Assembly: GCA_023150615.1 (NCBI GenBank)
Contig: JAKLKO010000005.1
Location: forward strand, 62,001-126,000
DNA: 64,000 nt
Direction: 5' to 3'
Source of the DNA: Phycisphaerae bacterium
Lineage (GTDB): Bacteria; Planctomycetota; Phycisphaerae; UBA1845; UTPLA1
In this document: one piece after another, positions 24,653-55,923 of the stretch
Layout: the number at the start of each line of letters is the position of its first letter
Numbering within the stretch: position 1 is the first letter of the stretch
Program-made: the position numbers and the translations under genes
The notes under the pieces: model-generated
What the model saw: only the letters and a program-made list of their open reading frames with translations
Database searches by the model: none
What the model was told of the DNA's origin: nothing

Positions 24653-25098
24653 GCGGAATTGGGGAGGCAGCCGGCGGGGCGGATTCGGGCGGGGACGCGT
24701 TCGAAGTCCGGATGGCCGAGTTCTACGCGTCGGTCGACCGTGCAATCGAGTCGCGGGGCGCTGTCTGCATCAACCGCGGATCGTGCTGCCGGTTCCGGGA
24801 GTTCGGACACAGCCTCTACGTAACCGAAGTGGAGCGGCGATATTTTCTCAAGCGGCAGTCGGTCGATGGGTTGCGGTCCGTGGTGAGCGACGAGGCCTGT
24901 CCGTACCAGGTGGGCGGGGCCTGCACGGCCCGGGCGCACCGGCCGCTGGGTTGCCGCGTGTATTTCTGCGATCCGACGAGTCGGGACTGGCAAGGGCTGC
25001 AGTACGAGACGGGCCTAGCGGAGCTGAAGGCGATCGGGGAGGCGTTCGGAATCCCCTACCGGTACCGCGAGTGGTTGACGGCGTTGCGTGGCGATTGA
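24649..25098 (+). CDS. YkgJ-family cysteine-cluster protein, second copy
   Basis: 149-residue paralogue-like partner of the preceding gene, start ATG 24649. Its cluster is less regular: CINRGSCCRFREFG near residues 41-54 (one Cys further out than CxxCxxCC), then EACPYQVGGACTARAHRPLGCRVYFCDP around 82-108, which supplies four more Cys. The chain starts with an acidic leader and an MAEFYASVDRAIESRG helix and ends in GIPYRYREWLTALRGD. Spacing suggests a metal site with a variant ligand set. Two adjacent divergent copies coupled by a four-base overlap suggest that they form a heteromer; this is inferred. Confidence 0.8.
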   Translation: MSGIGEAAGGADSGGDAFEVRMAEFYASVDRAIESRGAVCINRGSCCRFREFGHSLYVTEVERRYFLKRQSVDGLRSVVSDEACPYQVGGACTARAHRPLGCRVYFCDPTSRDWQGLQYETGLAELKAIGEAFGIPYRYREWLTALRGD

Positions 25099-25198
25099 CT
25101 CGGCGTCGCGGTGGCCGATAAGATTCGTGCGGCACATTGGTCAGGCGCGAGCGGGGTTGTGCCGATATAGGGTGATCGGCGGAGGTATCGAGGGTGCC

Positions 25199-54561: not shown

Positions 54562-54776
54562 ATGCCGCCTCAGGACAGGATTGTGCGGGACCGGGCGATA
54601 TGCGGCGGTGAACCCGTCATCCGCGGGACACGTGTGACGCGGCGCACCGGGACTCGGTGGATGAAATCGTCGAGGGTTCTCCGACGCTCACGCGTGACGA
54701 CGTGCACGCCGTGATCGCGATCGCGGCCGCATCGGTGCAAAAAGTTCCGCCCACTCCGGGCGTGCCTGCGACATGA
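54562..54776 (+). pseudogene. DUF433 antitoxin, broken by an out-of-frame deletion
   Basis: Antitoxin of the DUF433 type, which normally pairs with a DUF5615 toxin. From ATG 54562 the sequence matches the family (DRIVRDRAICGGEPVIRGTRVT), then after about base 54648 it shifts; a stop follows 15 residues or so later in the first frame. Frame 0 from GAC 54651 continues the family (DSVDEIVEGSPTLTRDDVHAVIAIAAASVQ) to a TGA at 54774-54776. Homologues have about eight residues between the two blocks; only two bases remain, so about 22 bases (not a multiple of three) were lost. The TGA overlaps the toxin ATG (ATGA), the usual operon layout. The antitoxin is very probably inactive. Confidence 0.75.
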
Positions 54777-55129
54777 GGGTCAAGCTCGACGAAAACCTCC
54801 CTGGCCGCCTCGCCAGCGCCCTCGAAGGACTCGGGGACGACGTAGACACGAGTGTCCAGGAAGGCCTCGCCGGTGAGAAGGATGAGATCTTGTGGAGTGC
54901 AGCGCAGCAGGCGGGGCGGTATTTTGTGACGCAAGTTCTGGATTTCTCGGATGTGCGCCGCTTTTAACCCGGTTCACATCATGGATTGCTGCTTGTTCGG
55001 CGTCGACATCCAAGCTGCCGGGCGCTCGTTGCGCGGGTACGAGCGCTCTTCATGAATGAAGCCGTCACGAGCTGGGAAGGGTGATTCGTCGTTGCGACGG
55101 AGAGCAAGGATCGTGTTCGGAAACGATAA
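54773..55129 (+). pseudogene. DUF5615 PIN-like toxin with two in-frame stops
   Basis: Toxin partner of the DUF433 gene. The first 64 residues match DUF5615 (MRVKLDENLPGRLASAL, VDTSVQEGLAGEKDEILWSAAQQAGRYFVTQ). A TAA at 54965-54967 stops it, but the same frame continues with the family's next block, PGSHHGLLLVRR, then ALVARVRALFMNEAVTSWEG, a TGA at 55082-55084 where homologues have Cys, and FVVATESKDRVRKR to TAA 55127. So two nonsense changes interrupt an otherwise full-length gene. In addition the catalytic block reads TQVLDFSD rather than TQDLDFSD, losing an acidic residue. Together this is clear decay. A 64-residue product could still be made but lacks the rest. Confidence 0.78.
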
Positions 55130-55157: not shown

Positions 55158-55923
55158 GTGGCGCATCTGTCCGGCGACGAAATTCGACGACTGGCGCGCG
55201 AGATCGTTCGAGACACGCCAGGCGGGATTCGCTATACGCCGTTGGTCAGGCGAATACATGCGGATCACCCAGAAACGCCGATCAACACGATTCATGGAGG
55301 TGTGTGGGATCTGCATCGTCAGTTCGCCAATGAGATTGCGAAGCCGAGTCGAGGCGTATACGTCTGGATCCCAGCCACAGCGGCCGCGACGCCCGGCGAG
55401 CCTGCTCCAGCATCGCCGACGCCGGTCGCGGGACCACGCGAGCAGGATTTCTATGAGCCGTTCAAAGACTACCTTAAGGACGATCTGGAGGAGGCAACCC
55501 GGGCGGTCGTGCTTGGCGGAGCAGGGTTGGGCGAGAAGTGGGGTACACCGGACGTGATCGGCGTGTATAAGGCGCGCTTCAGACATCGTCAAGTTCGAGG
55601 CCGAGATCATCTCGGCCGAAGTCAAATCGAATCCGGCCGAACCGGTGACGGCTTTCGGACAGGCGGTCGCGTACCGGCTGTTTTCGCACAAGTGCTACCT
55701 TGTCATGACTCGTGCGGTTTCCGAGAACGATGCGAGTCGGTTTGAGGCGCTTGCGATGCTATTCGGCATTGGGCTTGTGTTTTTTGACGCCAATCCCGAG
55801 AACCCGAATTTTGAGATTCGCTGCCGTGCGCAGCGGTTTGCCCCCGACGTTTTCTATGCGAACGAGCTCGCAGAACGCCTGAGACAGCATGACGAACGGA
55901 AGTTTGAAGAACTCTTTTCGTAG
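55158..55923 (+). pseudogene. Winged-helix + PD-(D/E)XK nuclease-like protein, frameshifted
   Basis: GTG 55158 begins a protein with an N-terminal winged-helix-like domain (about 1-75; MAHLSGDEIRRLAREIV, NTIHGGVWDLHRQFANEI), a Pro/Ala linker and a PD-(D/E)XK-like domain: acidic residue in EQDFYEPFKDYL, then Asp in GTPDVIGVYKA. About base 55575-55581 the frame breaks. In the +1 frame the second half continues: IVKFEAEIISAEVKSNP (the E-x-K), then AFGQAVAYRLFSHKCYLVMT (QxxxY) to the TAG at 55921-55923. All nuclease landmarks (D, E-x-K, Q) are present but split in two frames. A recent frameshift or a sequencing error; nuclease role inferred from motifs. Codon use here looks less GC-biased than in neighbours. 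Confidence 0.65.

Follow-up and report, generated by a model that had tools for sequence, protein, structure and literature searches.

The segment 55158-55923 of the window (the whole stretch of 64,000 nucleotides that was analysed; coordinates are positions within it, on the plus strand, and residue numbers are those of the joined chain) raises the question of whether two incomplete reading frames are the halves of a single protein, and what role such a protein might play. The initial annotation assumed one protein, readable only by changing frame near 55578. Alignment with intact copies confirmed this view, i.e. the segment is one gene of ~254 codons, split by a single frame change near 55573-55580, whose two frames join into a chain matching intact homologues. 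The frame opened by the GTG codon at 55158 encodes MAHLSGDEIRRLAREIV...GLGEKWGTPDVIGVYKAR and makes sense up to ~55575, where it passes into unrelated residues that run on to a stop codon at 55745, while the C-terminal half is encoded in the +1 frame from ~55577 (SDIVKFEAEIISAEVKSNPAEPVTAFGQAVAYRLFSHKCYLVM...) to the stop codon at 55921-55923. Since the +1 frame is closed by a stop codon at 55555-55557, and the run-on of the first frame is unrelated, neither frame alone encodes the protein; the same stop codons (55555-55557 and 55745) bound the frame change. The nuclease motifs (GTPDVIG, 55542-55562; SAEVKS, 55612-55629; FGQAVAY, 55654-55674) and the family-invariant residues D132, E154, K156 and Q168 are all kept. 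When joined, the halves match the copy of genome G095 at 56% over residues 1-253 (E 5e-84) and a copy from a Polyangiaceae genome at 56% over the same residues, and such an end-to-end match to intact single-chain proteins is far beyond chance. The C-terminal half is present once in the window's own genome (70 contigs, 4.10 Mb). As read, the gene yields at most a truncated protein lacking the ExK motif, which is presumably inactive; this would not apply if the frame change arose in assembly.

Features of the split nuclease gene and of its upstream neighbours (positions in the window)
Feature	Position	Strand	Basis
DUF433 antitoxin-like gene, truncated/decayed, upstream neighbour	54562..54711	+	Pfam PF04255, profile positions 1-20 of 56 only
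DUF5615 PIN-like toxin gene, truncated, upstream neighbour	54773..54967	+	Pfam PF18480, profile positions 1-62 of 110
N-terminal winged-helix domain, joined residues 1-72, GTG start	55158..55373	+	Model of the L019 homologue, weak Rok winged-helix matches
Linker, Ala/Pro-rich, poorly conserved, joined residues ~73-92	55374..55433	+	Gapped alignment columns; homologue model pLDDT <50
PD-(D/E)XK nuclease domain, first part, starting frame, including GTPDVIG	55434..55577	+	Frame translation, alignment
+1 frame-change interval; alignment with intact copies points to near 55573-55580	55558..55580	+	+1-frame stop; similarity lost after ~55575 in the first frame
Remainder of the nuclease domain, +1 frame, including SAEVKS and FGQAVAY, stop 55921-55923	55578..55923	+	Frame translation, alignment

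Intact homologues, for which a profile search had been proposed in the initial annotation, do carry both halves in one chain, which is the opposite of the outcome that the annotation had named as its refutation. With the joined chain as query, the family was detected in 14 of 150 related genomes (the window's own included), and with the alignment as query in 18 of 392 genomes taken from across the phylum; a few of the hits represent distant relatives only. Both searches combined revealed unbroken, full-length genes in 14 different Planctomycetota genomes. The family also occurs intact on a short contig of a Polyangiaceae (Myxococcota) metagenome-assembled genome (MAG), on pSA1, a conjugative plasmid from Novosphingobium resinovorum, and on four contigs of viral or provirus-like character; a search of 50,697 phage records yielded no homologue. 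The eight homologues aligned first share 45-58% identity with the window chain over their full length. Single proteins and alignment members gave nothing above noise in Pfam, NCBIfam (nothing above cut-off), PADLOC and PHROGs. The initial annotation could put no family name to the protein, which stands as far as these collections are concerned, but a close described relative, HrgA, does exist.

What kind of lesion separates the two halves? The frame change at this site is absent from every other copy that was read, and the site contains neither a slippery run nor a stop codon. A full-length protein made by programmed +1 frameshifting, for which the conserved sequence of both halves might speak, is therefore scarcely credible and was rejected, intact homologues being single-frame throughout; the frame change is a local lesion or an assembly error. 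Because the halves are otherwise open and retain every invariant residue, the lesion should be either recent or artificial. It is conceivable that the break is an assembly or sequencing error in the MAG and that the organism itself carries an unbroken gene, as the preservation of both halves and the representation of the species by one assembly would allow. We regard this as doubtful, though by no means far-fetched, since there is no homopolymer of five or more nucleotides near the site, the two genes just upstream are truncated too, as in a decaying accessory patch, and many relatives also contain broken copies.

It was noted at the outset that the gene follows a decayed toxin-antitoxin pair, and Pfam profiles identified DUF433 and DUF5615 genes directly upstream, both truncated. 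The copy sits between a transglutaminase-like gene and ispG, and its G+C content (0.589, against 0.678 for the window) is at the bottom of 633 segments of the same size. Taking into account the low G+C content, the truncated upstream genes and the frequency of broken copies among relatives, the locus suggests a foreign, decaying patch between these two genes. No convincing flanking repeats marking a transposable unit were found around the gene. In the relatives listed, the transglutaminase-like gene and ispG lie far apart or on different contigs, so that an empty site was not definable.

Lesions of various kinds have disrupted approximately 12 of the 26 genome copies; in addition to the window copy, fragments of the family occur in about eleven genomes. 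One copy (L034/L040, also L062; G207:C22, ~24869-25129) has lost residues ~46-215 in frame, so that the start of the head is joined to the C-terminal tail and the catalytic region is gone. PIN or antitoxin-like genes lie nearby on both sides of this copy. Another (L030/L059, G226:C65) continues after residue 150, without a stop codon, into an unrelated ATPase-like P-loop sequence (SGVRHSGKTTLAKS), as might result from the insertion of another gene within the family copy. The halves of a third (L010/L017) are located at two contig ends (the start of G011:C189 and the end of G011:C6), with new sequence at the break, a pattern to be expected from the insertion of a repeated element. Others are represented by N-terminal (L012, L014, L033, L037) or C-terminal remnants (L009, L011, L013, L032). 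Where a fragment lies close to the end of a contig, the assembly may in some cases be responsible.

The DNA-binding-like N-terminus and nuclease-like C-terminus proposed in the initial annotation were borne out, as a winged helix and a PD-(D/E)XK domain respectively, by structural matches and by an AlphaFold2 model of the intact L019 protein, built from a six-sequence alignment (mean pLDDT 81; pTM 0.57, the arrangement of the two domains being uncertain). In the model, residues 6-70 (pLDDT ~90) form a head of three helices with a two-stranded wing, which a disordered linker (residues 75-88, pLDDT <50) separates from an alpha-beta domain (residues 93-252). Alignment, model and fold matches agree on a fusion of winged helix and nuclease. 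The G-T-P-D, E-x-K, A-F-G-Q and Y positions are invariant in 19 aligned, diverse intact proteins (pattern GTPDVIG...SAE[VI]K...FGQAxAY). D132, E154 and K156, which make up the PD-(D/E)XK superfamily motif, are present in 19 of 19 members and in the window copy; by analogy with the superfamily, these residues are the probable catalytic ones.

The alpha-beta domain is structurally most similar to the nuclease domain of PaqCI (Z 12.3 over 138 residues), followed by 3dnx (Z 11.0), EndoMS/NucS (Z 8.7), XisH, AspBHI and others. PaqCI differs in being a 491-residue, multi-domain, sequence-specific type IIS enzyme, with only 13% identity and a DNA-reading part that the family does not have. The top Foldseek match, 2ph7, was not taken as a sign of kinship (TM 0.26-0.30). 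The N-terminal winged helix has no Pfam match; its fold matches winged helices including the C-terminal one of the Bacillus protein Rok (Z 6.8), and such values may reflect a common arrangement only. Rok also supplied the only, marginal, sequence matches in the PDB (profile E 0.02-0.09), but it is a repressor without a nuclease.

A described relative emerged by way of a weak family match (L036) carrying a HARE-HTH domain, and of plasmid-borne relatives annotated as 'HrgA protein'. HrgA, the 'restriction endonuclease-replacing gene' of Helicobacter, combines a HARE-HTH domain with a restriction-endonuclease-like domain. We take the HrgA group to be COG2958, a designation of which no mention was found in the literature searched. 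In hhalign comparisons the family profile matched HrgA at 96.2% (E 2.1e-9) with the whole chain and at 96.1% (E 3.5e-9, 138 columns) with the nuclease domain alone, the PD, ExK and Q-A positions being in register. Single HrgA sequences score 30-96% against the family, whereas the best of 99 neighbour proteins used as a control reached 33.7% and the next 5.6%; distant HrgA sequences are therefore separated from the controls only as a profile, and it is as a profile that the HrgA-type nuclease domain was recognised in the family above all 99 of them.

The two groups share the order of their parts (a winged-helix-type N-terminal domain, a linker, then PD-(D/E)XK), the PD, ExK and Q-A motifs with an RL...FGIGL/V stretch after them, and an occurrence alongside type I restriction genes; on pVPS43, a Vibrio plasmid, the hrgA gene is part of an hsdM-hsdS-hrgA-hsdR operon, and in Shewanella it precedes hsdR. 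They differ in length (~250 residues in the family, 310 in HrgA) and in the head, which is a shorter winged helix in the family. HARE-HTH (PF05066) was not matched by any of eight members at E 1, whereas HrgA relatives, including those of planctomycetes, match it at ~1e-11. Family heads reached 6.5% in hhalign against HrgA heads and 86%, over 40 columns only, against HARE-HTH, compared with 99% for HrgA heads. We therefore did not file the family as HrgA. In a tree the two are separated by a long branch, with full support on either side, and on these sequence comparisons the family appears as an uncatalogued sister family of HrgA, distantly related to it, presumably similar in its action, and forming its own clade. 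An HrgA query gave no match in the window's own genome. A HARE-HTH domain was seen there in a 323-codon open frame (G000:C30:6530-6730, E 1.7e-11).

Restriction or defence effectors were the initial annotation's comparison for this protein, and both gene context and the distant homology of the nuclease domain to HrgA lend support to it. Some intact copies, whose neighbours are given here descriptively, lie beside restriction-modification, AbiH/AbiV, Lamassu-like or toxin-antitoxin genes. One of them (L020) adjoins an ABC-3C component (MC5) and begins ~20 bases downstream of an Eco57I-type restriction-modification gene. Other neighbours are HsdR, AbiV and a control-protein-like HTH (L058), an HsdR-like helicase (L044), AbiH with an N6/N4 methyltransferase (L043), a type ISP enzyme (L051), and a Lamassu-like ATPase with a control-protein-like HTH (L057; assigned from the sequences, because PADLOC gives counts per family without member names). 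HEPN, HepT-like, MNT, PIN or MazF genes accompany L046, L048, L052 and L053. Several intact copies adjoin housekeeping or solitary toxin-antitoxin genes rather than a defence island, and no conserved partner gene was found next to the family, no Pfam family being common to more than 3 of 150 neighbour proteins. The control-protein-like HTH genes of L057 (8436-8663) and L058 (8652-8885), from two Planctomycetota genomes, are divergent and directly upstream, an arrangement resembling regulated restriction-modification systems.

In our opinion, the window gene is probably a copy, gained by horizontal transfer and now broken, of a gene for a small stand-alone restriction effector, which, with less assurance, would be type IV-like. 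According to sequence and model, the winged helix would bind double-stranded DNA and the PD-(D/E)XK domain would cut it, with a metal ion held by D132, E154 and K156. Since no methyltransferase was recognised beside most intact copies, the protein itself may tell foreign from own DNA, the simplest route being that the winged helix reads a base modification on invading DNA (type IV-like, modification-dependent restriction).

Such genes might instead encode a restriction endonuclease of the conventional kind, or a subunit accessory to type I, IIG or ISP systems, and the protein would then need a methyltransferase acting in cis or in trans. This would agree with the position of the L020 gene behind its Eco57I-type neighbour, with the hsdR-like genes at L058 and L044, with the divergent HTH genes of L057 and L058, and with the place HrgA can take within a type I operon. 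A DNA methyltransferase was recognisable within ~4.4 kb of 3 of the 18 intact copies (L020, L043, L051; Pfam and motif scan, some contigs being short). These three count against a stand-alone protein, but the rarity of recognisable methyltransferase genes argues against dependence on them. The partner systems also vary by locus (type I, ISP, Eco57I), as would be expected of a guest in defence islands rather than of a fixed subunit. We consequently consider this alternative unlikely.

A nuclease that acts in abortive infection or like a toxin, perhaps under the control of adjoining toxin-antitoxin genes, looks distinctly improbable. The window copy does come after the DUF433/DUF5615 pair, and other copies adjoin MazF, PIN, HEPN/MNT or HepT-like genes, but the toxin-antitoxin families vary from locus to locus and none recurs as a conserved partner.

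The idea that the stand-alone effector reads modified DNA draws on two analogies. Winged-helix fusion endonucleases (DpnI, FcyTI, Psp4BI, wH-GIY-YIG and others) have been proven 6mA-dependent, and 87% of more than 1,000 cases have no adjacent methyltransferase gene (PMC11037411), while a HARE-HTH restriction endonuclease has been proposed to discriminate modified DNA (PMC10853773). By analogy, the head of the present proteins may read some feature of invader DNA, and the family is possibly modification-dependent. It resembles the former enzymes in being a small, stand-alone combination of winged helix and nuclease, and perhaps in mostly having no adjacent methyltransferase; however, in their PD-(D/E)XK members the nuclease comes first and the winged helix last, the reverse of the order found here. 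A tentative and rather unlikely extension is that the family forms a distinct, undescribed class, whose N-terminal non-HARE winged helix would read a modification not yet known for winged helices, and which would spread between phyla on plasmids and proviruses and be repeatedly inactivated.

The family is a small, widespread group of nucleases missed by current defence catalogues, and it can now be linked to HrgA, a relative with an unsettled role of its own. While the window copy is a broken example only, the compact intact homologues offer a test bed for modification reading by winged helices that do not belong to the DpnI type. Two further proteins without a Pfam match (L035, L015) are also weakly similar to the nuclease domain, i.e. 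a 229-residue form without the winged helix and a 447-residue form with a different N-terminus.
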